Origin: Desulfatibacillum sp.
Lineage (GTDB): Bacteria; Desulfobacterota; Desulfobacteria; Desulfobacterales; SpSt-501
DNA length: 64,000 bases
Direction of reading: 5' to 3'
Assembly: GCA_020725555.1 (NCBI GenBank)
Contig: DYEU01000021.1
Coordinates: forward strand, 91,403-155,402
Shown here in pieces: positions 20,159 through 49,528 of the stretch (within the stretch, counting starts at the first letter, position 1; the number at the start of each line of letters is the position of its first letter). The notes under the pieces are model-generated. The model was not told where the DNA came from. It made no database searches and saw only the letters and a program-made list of their open reading frames with translations. The position numbers were made by a program, and so were the translations under genes.

Positions 20159-20162
20159 ATGT

Positions 20163-20328
20163 AGGGGACGTCCATTTGCATATCATGATGAGGTTGCAGG
20201 CCTGTGCCGCCCAGGGGTTCCCGGTGGGGCCCAGGCCCCTGTGCGGCCTATCGACGCAGGGCCATCCAGCGGGAAAACCAGCGCTTCACCTGCGGGGTGA
20301 GCCGGCCCCGGTTCCAGGCGTCGCCCGC
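20163..20328. repeat. Duplicated 166-bp segment, copy A (repeat R1 plus 3' end of the oxidoreductase gene)
   Basis: This stretch matches 24391-24555 with about 14 differences and one single-base indel. It starts with the GGGGACGTCC repeat and, on the reverse strand, carries the last ~25 codons of the disulfide oxidoreductase (AWNRGRLTPQVKRWFSRW). The match stops abruptly at CGCCCGC, where the ISL3 remnant begins. The intact gene is at 24475-26007, so this copy is the derived fragment. Confidence 0.9.
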
Positions 20329-24356: not shown

Positions 24357-24399
24357 ACGTCCCCATAAGAAAATAGGGGACTAAGAAAATAGGGGACGT
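24357..24399. repeat. Inverted ACGTCCCC/GGGGACGT element with tandem 16-mer
   Basis: ACGTCCCC (24357-24364) is mirrored by GGGGACGT (24392-24399). Between and overlapping them, TAAGAAAATAGGGGAC occurs twice in perfect tandem (24366-24381 and 24382-24397). The right arm is the beginning of repeat R2. The head-to-head layout resembles paired REP elements. Confidence 0.8.
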
Positions 24400-24555
24400 C
24401 CATTTGCATATCATGATGAGGTTGCAGGCCTGCGCCGCTTAGGGGTTCCCGAGAGGCCCAGGCCCCTGTGCGGCCTATCGGCGCAGGGCCATCCAGCGGG
24501 AGAACCAGCGCTTCACCTTGGGGGTGAGCCGGCCCCGATTCCAGGCGTCGCCCGC
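24391..24555. repeat. Duplicated segment, copy B (repeat R2 plus intact 3' end of the oxidoreductase gene)
   Basis: This is the counterpart of 20163-20328. It starts with GGGGACGTCCATTTGCATAT and includes the last 27 codons of the intact oxidoreductase gene plus its 3' flank. Confidence 0.9.
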
Positions 24556-26779: not shown

Positions 26780-27799
26780 TCAGCGGGCGACGCGGCTTGC
26801 GGGCGAAACGGACAGGGCCTCCCGGGCGGCACCGCGGAGCGCGGCCCAGGGGTCCACAATGACGTGCACGGGAATCTCCCCCAAGAGCGCTTCCATCCTT
26901 CCCTTGGCCCGGAACGCCGTGAGAAACGAGCCGCCTCGCAGCATAGGAAGGATGCGGGGCGGGATGCCTCCCCCCAGAAAGATACCGCCGGTTGCGAGAA
27001 AATCCAGGGCGAGGCCGCCGCAGACGGCGCCGAGGATCGAGATGAAGAGCTCGAGTGTCCCGCGGCAGAGGGCAGAGGGGTGCTCTTCACCCAGGGCCGC
27101 GGCGACGATGCGGGGCACGGGGTCGGGCGCCGCCGCGATCGTTTGCTTGAGCCCTTCGGCCTCCTTCGCGAAACCCTCCCCCTCCAGGTATTCGTAGAGG
27201 GTCCGGATCCCCCTTCCCGAGCAGACCCGCTCGCGGCTGACATGCGCAAAGCGCTCCCGCAGAAACAGGAAAAGCTGCGCCTGACGCGAATCAGCCGGCG
27301 CGAAGTCGCCGTGCCCGGCCTCCGAGGGGAAAACGCGGTAGCGGGAGCCGTCCCAGGCGAGGAAGGCGGCGCCCAGCCCCGTCCCCACGGCCACGACCGC
27401 GATCGTCCCGCCTGCGGCCGGGCGCCCCGCCTGGAGCGGCGCGACATCCTCCCCGCTAAGCAGGGGAACGGCCGCGGCGAGCGCCGCCACATCGTTGATC
27501 ACGCGCACGCCGTCGAAGCCGAAGCGCGCGCCAAGCCTTTGTTCGTCCACGACCCACGGGAGGTTGGTGAGGGCCGCCCGGCCCCCGCGCACCGGCCCGG
27601 CCACCCCGAAGCAAGCGCGGCCGACACGGGCGTTCACCTCCCCGAGAAAGGCGGAAACCAGGGACTCGAGATCGGCAAAGGAGGCGCTTGCATACTCTTT
27701 GGCGGCGACCGGCTGCCGGAAACCGCCCGCCGGCGCGAACACGGCAAGCCGGCTCCGTGTGCCCCCGATGTCCCCCGCGAGCAGATAGGGGACGTCCAT
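26780..27799 (-). CDS. glk: Glucokinase-family sugar kinase
   Basis: A 339-residue ATP-dependent glucokinase of the bacterial Glk group. Seen: the phosphate-1 motif LAGDIGGTRSRLAVF at the N-terminus, LTNLPWVVDE, the catalytic Asp in VINDVAALA, VGTGLGAAFL and the GHGDFAP segment. The chosen start (ATG 27799, MDVPYLL) lies inside repeat R3; ATG 27823 or 27832 would add 8 or 11 residues, and neither has a clear ribosome site. It is probably co-transcribed with the TVP38 and oxidoreductase genes downstream. Confidence 0.87.
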   Translation of the reverse strand: MDVPYLLAGDIGGTRSRLAVFAPAGGFRQPVAAKEYASASFADLESLVSAFLGEVNARVGRACFGVAGPVRGGRAALTNLPWVVDEQRLGARFGFDGVRVINDVAALAAAVPLLSGEDVAPLQAGRPAAGGTIAVVAVGTGLGAAFLAWDGSRYRVFPSEAGHGDFAPADSRQAQLFLFLRERFAHVSRERVCSGRGIRTLYEYLEGEGFAKEAEGLKQTIAAAPDPVPRIVAAALGEEHPSALCRGTLELFISILGAVCGGLALDFLATGGIFLGGGIPPRILPMLRGGSFLTAFRAKGRMEALLGEIPVHVIVDPWAALRGAAREALSVSPASRVAR

Positions 27800-27808
27800 T
27801 CTGATATC
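27787..27808. repeat. Short repeat R3, overlapping the glk start codon
   Basis: It contains GGGGACGTCCATTCTGATAT. On the gene strand the repeat reads ATGGACGTCCCC and supplies the first four glk codons (Met-Asp-Val-Pro). Confidence 0.85.
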
Positions 27809-27909
27809 AGGATCTGCCGCCATGCCCCTCATGTTGCCACAGGCGGATGAAAAAAGCGAACGGCCTCGGGGGGCGGGCGTGCCGATGCACCTGCGATTCC
27901 TATCGGGCT

Positions 27910-28800
27910 TCAGGGACGGGTTGCCCCGCGCTTCACGCACCAGACGCCGGCGAGGATCAGGGCGGCTGCGCCGGCGACCTTGAGCCCGAGGGGCTCATCC
28001 AAAACGAGCCAGCCCAGGAAGAGGGCGATCACGGGGTTGATGTAGGCGTAGGTCGAGACGAAGGCAAGCGGAAGCTTCGCCACGGCGTAGATGTAGGAGG
28101 GGTAGCCCACGAAGGAGCCGACGATCACGAGGTAGGCGAGCGCCCAGAGCCCCCGGGCCTCCCAGTGGAGCCGCGGGATCTCCCCCGCCAGAGCGCCCGC
28201 AAGGGTCAGGACCGCGCCCGCGATGATCATCTGTACGGCCGCCCCCATGAAGGGGTGTACCGCGAGGCGCACGTACTTCGAGTAAAGGGAGCCCAGCGAC
28301 CAGAAGAAAACCGCACCGAGAAGGGAAAGCAGACCGCTGCGGTTTCCGGGATCGGAGAACGCCTCGAGGTCGACCCCGAAGATGAGGAGAACCCCGGCCA
28401 GCCCGAGAAGCAGCCCCCCGGCCACCGCCAGGTTCAGCCGCGGCCGTCGCGGAAGCAGGGACTCGAGCGCCACCATCACGAGCGGCGTCGTCGTGATCAT
28501 GAGCGCGGCCGGCCCGCTCGCCACCCACTGCTCGCCGAAGACGACCAGCCCGTTTCCCAGCCCCAGAAGCAGGACCCCCACGACCGCAAGGTGCCCGAGC
28601 TCCCGGCGGGCGGGGAGGGCTGTCCCTTTGAGCCGCAGGGCCGCCGTGAAGACGAACCCGGCGATCAGCCAGCGGATGCCGGCAAAGAGAAAGGGCGGCA
28701 CCTCGCTCACCCCGATGCGGATCACGAGGTAGGTCGTCCCCCAGATCACGCACACGTTCGCCCACGCCACCAACGCCAAAGAGGGGACGTCCATTGTCAT
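27910..28800 (-). CDS. EamA/DMT-superfamily transporter
   Basis: A 296-residue protein with ten predicted membrane segments arranged as two EamA repeats. The first begins NVCVIWGTTYLVIRIG. The second ends with the family hallmark STYAYINPVIALFLGWLVLDE. It resembles the YedA/RhaT-like drug and metabolite exporters; substrate is unknown. Start ATG 28800 (or 28794) lies in repeat R4, and GAGG ten bases upstream is the likely ribosome site. Confidence 0.87.
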   Translation of the reverse strand: MTMDVPSLALVAWANVCVIWGTTYLVIRIGVSEVPPFLFAGIRWLIAGFVFTAALRLKGTALPARRELGHLAVVGVLLLGLGNGLVVFGEQWVASGPAALMITTTPLVMVALESLLPRRPRLNLAVAGGLLLGLAGVLLIFGVDLEAFSDPGNRSGLLSLLGAVFFWSLGSLYSKYVRLAVHPFMGAAVQMIIAGAVLTLAGALAGEIPRLHWEARGLWALAYLVIVGSFVGYPSYIYAVAKLPLAFVSTYAYINPVIALFLGWLVLDEPLGLKVAGAAALILAGVWCVKRGATRP

Positions 28801-28803
28801 ATT
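28782..28803. repeat. Short repeat R4, overlapping the EamA start codon
   Basis: It contains GGGGACGTCCATTGTCATAT. On the gene strand it encodes Met-Thr-Met-Asp-Val-Pro at the transporter N-terminus. A degenerate half copy (GACGTCATTCTG) follows at about 28818. Confidence 0.85.
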
Positions 28804-28879
28804 GGGATAACCTCGGAGACGTCATTCTGGCACGCTTTCGTCTCTAAAGCGAGGAGCAAGAATTCTTTCTCTTCAGGGG

Positions 28880-30446: not shown

Positions 30447-30468
30447 AGGGGACGTCCATTCTCATATT
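30447..30468. repeat. Short repeat R5
   Basis: It contains GGGGACGTCCATTCTCATAT and lies between the STAS-like gene and the CARDB gene. It would encode Met-Arg-Met-Asp-Val-Pro and then a stop, so it does not start a gene here. Confidence 0.85.
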
Positions 30469-30531
30469 GGTATCCAACCGCCAAGGGAATCGAAAGGGCG
30501 ACGGAGGCCCGCCGGGGGATGGAGCTGCGGC

Positions 30532-45631: not shown

Positions 45632-47035
45632 TCAGGAGCGGCGCGGCGCGTTGCGGGCCGCGGCCCGCTCGGCTTCGCCGCGGAAGTGCTCGCGGAAGGC
45701 TAGGGCCGCGTAGGTCGCCGCCCGGGTGCCGATCAGCTCGCCGTGGGCCACGACCGCGGCCACGGCGAGCTTTTCCCCGCTCCGGGGATCCGCCGCGTAG
45801 CCCACGAACCAGTCGTAGCGCTCCTCCCCCGAGCCGTCGCCGATCGACCCGGTTTTCCCCCCGATCTCCAGCCCCGCGAGAATGCGGTCTGCGCTGTGCT
45901 TCTGAAACTCCCGGTGTGCCGTCCCCGACTGCACCGTCTCGCGCATGAGCTCGCGCAGGGTGCGGGCGGTCGCCGGGTCGACGATGCGGTCGCCCATCAC
46001 GGTGCGGCTCTGGTAGACGACCCGGCCCTCGGGGCCGATCACCCAGTCCACGATCGTGGGCTCGACCCATCGGCCGCGGTTCACGACCGCCGCCGCGATC
46101 AGGGCGCCGTGAAGCGGCGAGATGCGGGTGGTGCGGTTGAAGCCGCTGGCCACCTCGGCGAGCCCGTAGCGGTCGCCGCGGCCGAGCTCGACGACGCTCG
46201 GCCGCAGCGGAAGCTCGAAGTCGATCTCCCGGTTGAAGCCGAAGGCCTCGGCATAGCCCTCGATCCGCTCCCGGCCCAGGAGGTTCGCCCCCAGCTTGCC
46301 GAAGACGGGGTTCACCGACTGGGCGAAGGAATCCCGCAGGGTGATCTGCTGGTCGCGGCGCGAGGCCTTGGGCGCGATCTGGGATTTGTAGAGGGTGTAT
46401 TTCCCGCCGGAGTAGGGGATCAGCGAGCCGGGCTTGAGGTCGGCCGCTTCCAAGGCGGCCGCGGCGGTGACGATCTTGAAGACGCTCGCCGCCGGAAAAC
46501 GGCTTTCGAGACAGGGGTTCACCTCCGGCCGGTTGCGGTCGTGGCCCGCCATGGCGAGCACGCGGCCGTCGGTGGGGTCGATCGCCACCACGGCGATGGA
46601 GCGTGCGTGCCTGCGGTCGAGGTGCTCGGCGAGGACCTGCTGGAGCCGGGGGGCGAGGGTCGTCTGCAGGGTGAAGCAGCGGTTGCCCTGGCGGATTTCG
46701 AGCTGCTCCTCGGCGAGGTTGAGAAAGGCGACGCCGGCCGTGAGGGCCTGGAGCTCGATCTTTGAAAAGGACTTGAGCGGAGGCCGCGGGGAGGGGTCGC
46801 CGCCGCCTGCGGGCCGCAGGAGGCCCTGGGCGGCCAAGCGGGGGTCGGGTGCGGTTTTTTTCGCCGTGAGGTTCGCGCCGATCTGCAGCGCCGCAAATGC
46901 AATCCCCACGAAAAGAAGAAGGGCCCAAAGAAGCCTTCGTCTCGTTGCCCGGCCGCCCGCGGCGGCGGTGCGGGGTGAGCTTTTCCCCGCGGCGGGCGGG
47001 AGCGTCGGCAGCGTCAGGCAGCGTGTGTGGTACAT
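45632..47035 (-). CDS. Penicillin-binding transpeptidase domain protein
   Basis: A 467-residue membrane-anchored DD-transpeptidase-like protein. An N-terminal signal anchor (about 33-55) precedes the catalytic domain, which has ASVFK (Ser nucleophile and Lys), SVN and KTGSIGDG motifs. The N-terminal pedestal/dimerisation domain of class B PBPs is replaced by ~100 residues without clear homology, so it is not a standard FtsI or MrdA. ATG 47035 has GGAG eight bases upstream, inside the end of the RAYT gene; the track ORF (to 47326) overruns that gene. Only four bases separate it from the RAYT stop. Confidence 0.82.
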   Translation of the reverse strand: MYHTRCLTLPTLPPAAGKSSPRTAAAGGRATRRRLLWALLLFVGIAFAALQIGANLTAKKTAPDPRLAAQGLLRPAGGGDPSPRPPLKSFSKIELQALTAGVAFLNLAEEQLEIRQGNRCFTLQTTLAPRLQQVLAEHLDRRHARSIAVVAIDPTDGRVLAMAGHDRNRPEVNPCLESRFPAASVFKIVTAAAALEAADLKPGSLIPYSGGKYTLYKSQIAPKASRRDQQITLRDSFAQSVNPVFGKLGANLLGRERIEGYAEAFGFNREIDFELPLRPSVVELGRGDRYGLAEVASGFNRTTRISPLHGALIAAAVVNRGRWVEPTIVDWVIGPEGRVVYQSRTVMGDRIVDPATARTLRELMRETVQSGTAHREFQKHSADRILAGLEIGGKTGSIGDGSGEERYDWFVGYAADPRSGEKLAVAAVVAHGELIGTRAATYAALAFREHFRGEAERAAARNAPRRS

Positions 47036-47039
47036 GCGG

Positions 47040-48071
47040 TCATCTCCGGGCAAGCGGCCGTCGCGTGCCGACGCCGCGGCGCAGAGCCTCCACGCCTTCC
47101 GGCATCGGGTGGGCGGCGGCGCGGGTGATGCAGGAGGTGCTGACCCCCAGGTGACGGGCCACCTCGGCCCCGGAGTAGCCAAGATCGCGCATGGCGAACC
47201 AGGAGAGCGCGGTGCGGGCTTCCACCACGGGGCGGCGGCGGCTTCCGCCGAGGAGCTCCCCTGCGGAGACGCCCCAAGCCTCGCAGGCGCGGCGGCAGAC
47301 CGAGGCGATGTCGGGGCGTGGCCCATCCAAAAGGAAGTTCCGCCGTTGCCGCATTTCCATGCGCTCGATCATCTTCGCGACAAACCGTCGGTCGCCCAGG
47401 ATGCACCGTTCCGCGGTCGAGCGATACCCGTGGCGGTGGCGCCGGGAGGTGACCTCCGACCAGCCTCCCCAGGAGGGAAGCGAAAGCCGCTCGAGCCCGA
47501 GGTCTCCCGGCGGACGGGGGATCCCGTCGGCGATGAAGCGGTTGTAGGCCGTGCGGGCCGCCCTGCGCGTGGGTGCAAAGAAGGAAAGCACCCGGTCGGT
47601 CTCCTGCCAGGGGCGGGGGACGCGGCCGAGGAGGGCGCTGTGGCCGCTCCAGGGCCAGCGGCCGAGTTCCTCGAGGCTGCCCACGATCCCCGCCCGCAGC
47701 GGGTTCAGGTGGATGTAGCGCACGAGTTCCCTGAGATAGGGCTCCTTCTGGCAGAGCAGGGAGCGGAAACGGTTCTGGAAGAGGTGCCCGCTCCGGCCGT
47801 GGCGCTTGTTGAAGGCGACCGCGTAGCCGGTGAGGAGCCGATGCATGGTCGAGGAGAGGGACAGGGCCGCCGACTCGCACAGGAGGTGGACGTGGTTCGA
47901 GAGAAGCGCCCAGGCGTAAATGTGCACGGCCCCCTCCGCGGCGAGCCGGCCGAGGCGGGCGAGGAAACGGTCCCGGTCCTCGTCGTCGTGAAAGAGGGGG
48001 CGCCCCTCGATCCCGCGGGCGATGACATGGTGCAGGGCCCCGGGAGCATCGATACGCGCTGCACGCGGCAT
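47040..48071 (-). CDS. REP-associated tyrosine transposase (RAYT, Y1_Tnp domain)
   Basis: A 343-residue single-copy transposase of the IS200/IS605-related RAYT group. The Y1_Tnp domain (about 1-150) has the HUH pair in LLSNHVHLL and the GHLFQNRFRSLL and YIHLNPLRAG segments. The C-terminus has a DnaA/Trp-repressor-like helix-turn-helix (YSGAEVARHLGVSTSCITRA). The family start MPRAARIDAPGALHHVI puts the ATG at 48071; the track ATG 48080 adds three residues. A GGACGTC-ATTGT sequence at the start resembles the five repeats elsewhere. No terminal inverted repeats or paired IS ends were found. Confidence 0.87.
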   Translation of the reverse strand: MPRAARIDAPGALHHVIARGIEGRPLFHDDEDRDRFLARLGRLAAEGAVHIYAWALLSNHVHLLCESAALSLSSTMHRLLTGYAVAFNKRHGRSGHLFQNRFRSLLCQKEPYLRELVRYIHLNPLRAGIVGSLEELGRWPWSGHSALLGRVPRPWQETDRVLSFFAPTRRAARTAYNRFIADGIPRPPGDLGLERLSLPSWGGWSEVTSRRHRHGYRSTAERCILGDRRFVAKMIERMEMRQRRNFLLDGPRPDIASVCRRACEAWGVSAGELLGGSRRRPVVEARTALSWFAMRDLGYSGAEVARHLGVSTSCITRAAAHPMPEGVEALRRGVGTRRPLARR

Positions 48072-48143
48072 GGACGTCATTGTAACGTTTTTGTTTTGTC
48101 CGGTAAAGCAATTTCTGCATCAACGTCCCTATTCTTTTTTCGG

Positions 48144-48178: not shown

Positions 48179-49528
48179 ATGCAGGAGGCGATCCGGAAGC
48201 TGCTCGAACGGGATGCAGGGGAGCGGGAGTTCCAGCAGGCCGTGCGCGAGGTGCTGGGAACCGTGGCGCCGTTTCTCGCGCGCCTGCCGCAGCCTGTCGC
48301 CCAGGGGCTGCTCGAGCGCATCGTCGAGCCCGAGCGCGTCGTCTCCTTCCGCGTCCCCTGGGTGGACGACCGCGGCCGCACCTGCGTCAACCGCGGTTTT
48401 CTCGTGGAGATGAACAACGCCCTGGGCCCCTTCAAGGGGGGGCTGCGCTTTCACCCCTCGGTCACGCAGAGCATTCTCAAGTTTCTCGCCTTCCAGCAGG
48501 TCTTCAAGAACGCCCTGACCGGTCTGCCGCTGGGCGGCGGGGCGGGCGGCGCGGACTTCGACCCCAAGGGGAAATCCGACGCCGAAGTCATGCGCTTCTG
48601 CACGGCCTTCATGCAGGAGCTCTACCGCCATGTCGGCCCGCGGGTGGACATCCCCGGGGGCGACATCGGGGTCGGCGCGCGCGAGATCGGATATCTCTTC
48701 GGCGCCTACCGCCGCCTCGCCAACCGTTTCGAGGGGGCGCTCACGGGCAAGGGGCTCGCCTGGGGCGGAAGCCTCTTCCGGGCCGAGGCCGCGGGCTACG
48801 GCTGCGTCTACTTCGCATCCGAGCTCCTCGCCTCGCGGGGCCTCGGCCTCGAAGGGCAGGTCTGCCTCGTCTCCGGCTCGGGGAACGTCGCCCAGCACAC
48901 GGCCGAGCAATTGATCCGCTCCGGGGCCCGGGTGGTGACGCTCTCCGATTCCTCGGGTCACATCTACGACCGCGACGGGATCGACGGGGAAAAACTCGCC
49001 TTCGTCAAGCACCTGAAAAACGTGCGCCGCGGCCGCATCCGCGAGTACGTCGAGAAATACCCTTCGGCCGTCTATGTGCCGGTCGACCCCAGCCTCGATC
49101 ATCACCCCATCTGGAGCCATAGGGCGGATCTCGCCTTCCCTTGCGCCACGGAAAACGAGATCGGCGAGCAGGACGCCTACCGCCTGATCAACCACCCGAT
49201 CAAGCTCGTCTGCGAGGCGGCGAACATGCCCTGCACGCCCGAGGCCGTCCAGATCTTCGCCGGCAAGCACATCCTGTTCGCCCCGGGCAAGGCGGCGAAC
49301 GCGGGCGGTGTCGCCGTGAGCGGGCTCGAGCTCGTGCAAAACAGCATGCGGCTCTCCTGGCAGGGCGAGGAGATCGACGCCCGCCTCAAACTCCTCATGA
49401 AAGGCATCTACCGCACCTGCCTCGAGGCGGCCGAGGCCTACGGCTGCCCCGGCGATCTCCTCCGCGGGGCGAACCTCGCCGCCTTCGAAAAAGTGGCCAA
49501 CGCCATGCTCGACCAGGGCGTGGCCTGA
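48179..49528 (+). CDS. gdhA: NADP-type glutamate dehydrogenase homologue with altered catalytic lysine
   Basis: A 449-residue hexameric-type glutamate dehydrogenase (2-oxoglutarate + NH4 to glutamate). Conserved: PFKGGLRFHPSV (substrate Lys), ILKFLAFQQVFKNAL, DIPGGDIGVGAREIGYLFG (catalytic Asp), VSGSGNVAQHTAEQLI and FAPGKAANAGGVAVSGLE. However, the usual GGGKGG catalytic motif reads GGGAGGADFDPKGKS, with Ala at about residue 122 where family members carry the catalytic lysine (K125 of the Clostridium symbiosum enzyme). It could be a variant clade, an inactive form or a sequencing error. No strong ribosome site precedes the ATG. Confidence 0.88.
   Translation: MQEAIRKLLERDAGEREFQQAVREVLGTVAPFLARLPQPVAQGLLERIVEPERVVSFRVPWVDDRGRTCVNRGFLVEMNNALGPFKGGLRFHPSVTQSILKFLAFQQVFKNALTGLPLGGGAGGADFDPKGKSDAEVMRFCTAFMQELYRHVGPRVDIPGGDIGVGAREIGYLFGAYRRLANRFEGALTGKGLAWGGSLFRAEAAGYGCVYFASELLASRGLGLEGQVCLVSGSGNVAQHTAEQLIRSGARVVTLSDSSGHIYDRDGIDGEKLAFVKHLKNVRRGRIREYVEKYPSAVYVPVDPSLDHHPIWSHRADLAFPCATENEIGEQDAYRLINHPIKLVCEAANMPCTPEAVQIFAGKHILFAPGKAANAGGVAVSGLELVQNSMRLSWQGEEIDARLKLLMKGIYRTCLEAAEAYGCPGDLLRGANLAAFEKVANAMLDQGVA

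Follow-up and report, generated by a model that had tools for sequence, protein, structure and literature searches.

The RAYT gene carried by the window (the whole stretch of 64,000 nucleotides of Desulfatibacillum sp. DNA that was analyzed here) is likely a domesticated TIRYT, which has kept a left TIR only, has no dispersed repeats of its own and is probably autoregulatory, and the five repeats present in the window belong to another RAYT of the same genome, located on contig C25.

Results

The sequence-only reading of the window had recognized a RAYT transposase at this locus, and our analysis confirms the presence of a Y1/HUH transposase ORF (47040-48080, minus strand). The first ATG found in the conserved MPRxAR context is the second ATG of the ORF (48069-48071; MPRAARIDAPGALHHV). 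Counted from this conserved MPR start, the RAYT/TIRYT gene (47040..48071, minus strand) encodes a Y1 HUH transposase of 343 aa, an assignment based on Pfam and NCBIfam profile matches, on HxH and YIHLNP motifs and on a structure model. The Pfam Y1_Tnp profile matches the protein at 1.1e-9 (profile search). With the NCBIfam profile REP_Tyr_transpos, it reaches 69.7 bits, under the curated cut-off of 80, as do its RAYT relatives (68.7-75.7 bits); such scores may be expected in a divergent subclass. The HUH motif is NHVH (NHFH in orthologs), and its HxH and the tyrosine motif YIHLNP are both invariant across six orthologs. The protein therefore carries the HUH and Y---NP motifs that define RAYT/TnpAY1 class 2. 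The best PDB match of its predicted structure (mean pLDDT of 80) is, for the core, the REP-associated transposase of E. coli (4ER8; E 8.9e-5, TM of 0.65 to the target). The C-terminus of the model resembles domain IV of DnaA bound to DnaA boxes (3PVP and 1J1V, TM up to 0.76 to the target). HMM matches to HTH or Bac_DnaA_C domains are weak and below cut-off in this region, the DnaA domain IV fold coming from the model, and a sequence search of PDB with the protein gave no meaningful match, so that these relatives were obtained from the predicted fold only. With this predicted C-terminal HTH or Bac_DnaA_C domain, a feature of subclass 2.1, the window RAYT belongs to TnpAY1 subclass 2.1, also called TIRYT.

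The five repeats reported by the same reading are real (five found compared to 0.35 expected by chance). They are all located on the plus strand, at 20165..20190 (R1), 24393..24418 (R2), 27789..27814 (R3), 28784..28809 (R4) and 30449..30474 (R5). The genome of the window (G000) contains 50 exact copies of GGGACGTCCATT and, once the C/T variant is included, 55 copies of the repeat family (stretches fetched), which are strongly clustered (35 gaps ≤5 kb compared to 4.1 expected). Two copies in sense are found upstream of a second RAYT gene (C25:50423-51382) and one inverted copy downstream of it, a layout that is the same for the G003 ortholog of this gene. A count of exact matches to the 13-mer GGGGACGTCCATT across seven congeners gives 45 for G000, 37 for G003, one for G004 and zero for each remaining genome. 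The two genomes that are rich in the repeat, G000 and G003, both carry a C25-type RAYT; G001, G002, G004 and G005 possess the window-type RAYT and zero or one copy of the GGGGACGTCCATT repeat. The proposed link between the five repeats and the window RAYT thus does not hold, since the repeat tracks the C25-type RAYT across congeners and not the window type. The five GGGGACGTCCATT repeats are members of the dispersed TIR family of the C25 RAYT of the same genome; the window RAYT is ruled out as their owner by this distribution and by its single own site per genome. The C25 RAYT, but not the window RAYT, is bordered by copies of a repeat dispersed in its genome, as expected from a REP/REPIN enzyme. 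Furthermore, a third RAYT (L040, G000:C6:173283-174242) has its own different TIR, GGGACGATGGTGAAATATTGAC, present in eight copies in the genome. Since the window, C25 and C6 RAYTs differ in their TIRs, this genome harbors three RAYTs, each with a different TIR type.

A relative of the repeat had also been placed at the very start of the window RAYT, at 48070-48085. The plus strand does read TGGACGTCATTGTAAC, but one base away, at 48071..48086. Aligning it with the repeat needs one gap and leaves 12 matches out of 13 aligned positions; a match of the same quality is found in 2.45% of 260-bp stretches taken at random from the window. TGGACGTCATTGTAAC is made of CAT, the plus-strand form of the start codon, and then of TACAAT in reverse complement. 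Five orthologs have CATAAGGACATTGTA, CATACCACCAGCATA, CATACAAACAGTATA, CATATGCTCAGGATA and CATATCGCCAGAATA at the corresponding position: the start codon and the -10-like letters persist and the repeat-like ones are gone. Its orientation is also opposite to the convention of the family, in which upstream repeats have the same orientation as the gene. The comparison with orthologs, the orientation and the frequency of chance matches therefore rule out this site as a repeat; it is made of a start codon and the reverse complement of a -10 box.

The more general idea that RAYTs carry relatives of their own repeat at their ends is borne out for the window RAYT upstream of the gene, but at a different site. 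The comparison of ortholog flanks with the repeat, which had been suggested as a check, shows that another upstream relative is conserved: GGGACGTTGATGCAGAAATTGCTTTA, at 48104..48129 on the minus strand, ~30 bases upstream of the site discussed above. Its 26 bases show 86% pairwise identity in six congeners compared to 28% for the 60 bases outside and 34% for the 16 bases inside. It is found at the same distance in all five congeners examined, with GGGACG 57-58 bases before the ATG, and this GGGACG, located well upstream of the -35 box, is identical in 6/6. These genomes are draft assemblies, mostly incomplete, and G006 could not be judged. The window-type TIR (GGGACGTTSATGCAGAAATTGC) is present exactly once per genome in six genomes, always before the window-type RAYT; a second match in G000, with three mismatches, belongs to the other repeat family. 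It shares 19-25 of 27 bases with the left TIRs of a sister RAYT clade from other deltaproteobacterial genomes and 15-18 of 27 with C25-type TIRs. The sister clade, joined to the window clade with a support of 100/99 in the tree, has an upstream TIR, GGGGACGTTCGTGCAGAAATTGCTTGACA, usually accompanied by an inverted copy downstream. Neither the local alignment of 450-base flanks nor a GGGACG scan detected a right TIR in the six window-type orthologs (left TIR in 6/6 genes, right TIR in 0/6). Unlike TIRtrons, which have TIRs on both sides, these six genes therefore have the left one only, and its core GGGACG fits only the first part of the GGGGWSAS motif. Because of this missing downstream copy and of the match with the sister clade, 48104-48129 is best read as a left TIR kept after the loss of the right one, and its conservation in orthologs and its single copy designate it as the repeat relative that belongs to the window RAYT.

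The inner end of this TIR overlaps a putative -35 box, TTTACC (48102..48107, minus strand). Since TACAAT (48079..48084, minus strand) lies 17 bases after it, it was read as a putative -10 box; the 17-bp spacing is kept in orthologs, in which TACAAT, TATGCT, TATACT, TATCCT and TATTCT are found at the same place. These promoter elements were assigned by eye. The ATG is located 7 bases past the putative -10 box, which suggests a near-leaderless mRNA.

The RAYT gene is followed by a gene encoding a penicillin-binding protein (PBP) with a transpeptidase domain (45632..47035, minus strand; Pfam Transpeptidase, 6.5e-39), which has the same direction and starts 4 bases past the RAYT stop; RAYT and PBP probably form one operon. 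The divergent neighbour, in conserved synteny, is the glutamate dehydrogenase gene gdhA (48179..49528, plus strand). The order gdhA/RAYT > PBP is kept in the five congeners examined. Judging from codon substitutions relative to G003 (dN/dS of 0.19 with NG86 and 0.11 with YN00), the RAYT protein is under purifying selection.

Our survey gathered 113 full-length relatives, a few of them being the same gene fetched twice, and 106 loci were evaluable for TIRs; 80 of these 106 have TIRs on both sides. These TIRs are ~25 bp long and consist of GGGACG, three variable bases and an A/T-rich remainder. The left one is located in the promoter, ~57 bases before the start, and the right one near the stop codon. 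In 95 loci, the distance from an upstream GGGACG to the start is 40-69 bases (mode of 57), and this GGGACG is often followed by TTGACA or a similar sequence. Covariation between proteins and TIRs is weak (positions 1-6: rho of 0.18 for the HTH compared to 0.02 for the core, phylogeny being ignored). As single strands, the single TIRs that were tested have an MFE of 0 to -1.6 kcal/mol, which does not improve on shuffled sequences, compared to -12.1 kcal/mol for an E. coli REP and -21 for an inverted TIR pair. Neither the hairpin nor the GT[AG]G foot of REP/REPIN sequences (no GTAG) was found in a single TIR. Since single TIRs do not fold and only inverted pairs do, they are not REP elements by structure.

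Tandem duplications of 11-20 bases, most of which end on the right with GGGAC or GGGACG, are present at some TIRs. Nine of the 55 dispersed copies of G000 have one, two of these nine being imperfect or spanning the whole core; in the window, TAAGAAAATAGGGGAC is repeated twice at the 5′ end of R2 (24366..24397, plus strand), ending at GGGAC. Duplications ending in GGGAC(G), followed by variable letters, also occur at 11 RAYT-flanking TIRs elsewhere, compared to 0 of 882 other GGGAC sites taken as control; none was found in the 41 repeat copies of G003. At loci L230-L232 (G054:C1:3840000-3895000), at least eight RAYT copies of ~1,110 bp are arranged in one orientation within 45 kb. They are 97-99% identical, and further fragments are present. 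At either end, the copies cease to be homologous 10-13 bases outside GGGACG, and no target duplication was seen at them. By its sequence, this array is an IS-like active TIRtron. Taken with the duplications at GGGAC(G), which are an independent mark, its copy ends suggest the place where the enzyme would cut in mobile relatives.

Discussion

We propose that the DnaA-like C-terminal domain of these enzymes would read the TIR as duplex DNA. Once a single strand is exposed at replication, the HUH/Tyr core could nick it near GGGAC(G) and ~12 nt outside, which would allow the element to move in mobile relatives. In the window, the enzyme would now autoregulate the RAYT-PBP operon through the retained TIR. 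Since this TIR reaches into the -35 box, autoregulation of the operon appears to be the most likely remaining role, although promoter function alone or the binding of another regulator could also account for the conservation of the TIR.

The strongest competing explanation is that the upstream site is a mere conserved promoter, without enzyme binding, and that the RAYT persists as a passenger thanks to the promoter that it provides to the PBP gene. The conserved -35 and -10 boxes with their constant spacing and the position of the PBP gene, 4 bases past the RAYT stop, agree with it. However, the most conserved part of the site (GGGACG, 6/6) lies well upstream of the -35 box, the same module is found in the promoters of mobile relatives, and the RAYT protein is under purifying selection with its catalytic residues kept, all of which make this explanation rather unlikely. 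That the window RAYT is a still mobile TIRtron whose right end has diverged past detection is much less probable: its catalytic motifs are intact and it has mobile relatives in the order (the G054 array), but local alignment and the GGGACG scan found no right TIR in six orthologs and the gene is in single copy at the same locus in the congeners examined. The least credible explanation, which we consider very improbable, is that the window RAYT made and recognizes the five GGGACGTCC repeats, the 48070-48085 match being a flanking copy: window and C25-type TIRs do both start from the family-wide core GGGACG (15-18/27 alike) and a single RAYT could in principle use related repeats as substrates, but the site is unconserved and explained by a start codon and a -10 box, and the repeat follows the C25-type RAYT across congeners, with three copies at the ends of that RAYT.

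A domesticated TIRYT thus remains the reading that we favor, and it can be compared with known systems. TIRYTs were described as RAYT-like genes that form TIRtrons, in which a GGGG... motif is repeated in inverted orientation at a constant distance; their TIR families are moderately abundant and dispersed as single, paired or grouped copies, and the RAYTs of a genome can be several and differ in their TIRs (Di Nocera et al. 2013, PMC3733652). The repeats at constant distance from a RAYT, the dispersed TIR families and the several RAYTs per genome with their own TIRs are all found here. By contrast, the window gene has a left TIR only, lacks a dispersed family and is fixed beside a PBP gene, and the TIRs are GGGACG followed by NNN instead of the strict GGGGWSAS. 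In a term search of that paper, neither duplications nor a penicillin-binding gene came up. Subclass 2.1, which is common in delta-proteobacteria, probably corresponds to these TIRYT genes in the view of the authors who defined it, who left this link for confirmation; neither their automatic nor their manual searches detected REP-like sequences in the vicinity of subclass 2.1 genes (Quentin et al. 2018, PMC6006769). The window RAYT resembles this subclass (Bertels group 1) by its Y---NP, NHVH and FQ motifs, its long protein and its Bac_DnaA_C/HTH C-terminus. Whereas that study reported no REP-like sequences, TIRs were found here on both sides of 80 of the 106 evaluable relatives. With REP/REPIN and their RAYTs (E. 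coli TnpAREP, 4ER8; PMC8266576), the present systems share the HUH core fold and dispersed repeats, often in inverted pairs, that flank the enzyme gene, but they have no GTAG and no hairpin in a single TIR, and a DnaA-like DNA-binding domain is predicted in addition. They share with IS200/IS605 elements (IS608, ISDra2) the HUH-Y1 transposase fold and, for the G054 copies, the absence of target duplication, but differ from them by their inverted GGGACG ends and by the lack of hairpin in the single TIRs tested.

In the published census, the largest of the class-2 RAYT subclasses is 2.1, whose DNA targets were previously unknown or disputed. The survey provides this subclass with a clear candidate substrate, GGGACG plus a variable part, suggests a cut place and points to the DnaA-type domain as the TIR reader. 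In one genus, an element appears to have been stripped to its gene and one end, fixed beside a cell-wall gene, which makes RAYT domestication a concrete before-and-after comparison.

It is possible, but doubtful, that the transposase has become a regulator of cell-wall synthesis that uses one of its own TIRs as operator in the promoter of the RAYT-PBP operon, the same PBP having been joined again in family f29. Of 146 genomes of the order, 114 have the PBP gene, almost all of them in a single copy at the threshold used, and among 30 PBP loci fetched, a RAYT precedes it only in the genus of the window and in G034. In family f29 (G034, G093), this RAYT comes from another clade and has TIRs on both sides. 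That two RAYT lineages (of some 35) share one downstream PBP may be due to chance (~10%, a rough estimate), and independent recruitment is therefore not claimed as proof of function. At the f29 loci L122 (G034:C3) and L212 (G093:C58), the PBP gene takes its start codon from the right TIR of the RAYT (ATGGACGTCCC or ATGGGCGTCCC).

A literature search by the sequences of repeat cores returned nothing relevant. R1 and R2 share ~165 bp of downstream homology (window 20162-20328 and 24390-24555, 87-91% identity) and are therefore parts of a segmental duplication and not independent copies. The repeats at 24393, 27789 and 30449 coincide with synteny breaks relative to G003. In this congener, a 14.5-kb segment is located between two direct repeats (G003:C27:14391-28958), where the window has the single repeat at 27789. 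In G000, an open frame of at least 100 codons has its stop at or close to 36 of the 55 copies, and in many of them TAG directly precedes GGGACG. For the comparison with empty sites, by which the insertion boundary can be located, one ortholog was usable, that of gene L044 (C9:108799) in G001: the G000 gene ends at the repeat, ~30 aa before its G001 ortholog.
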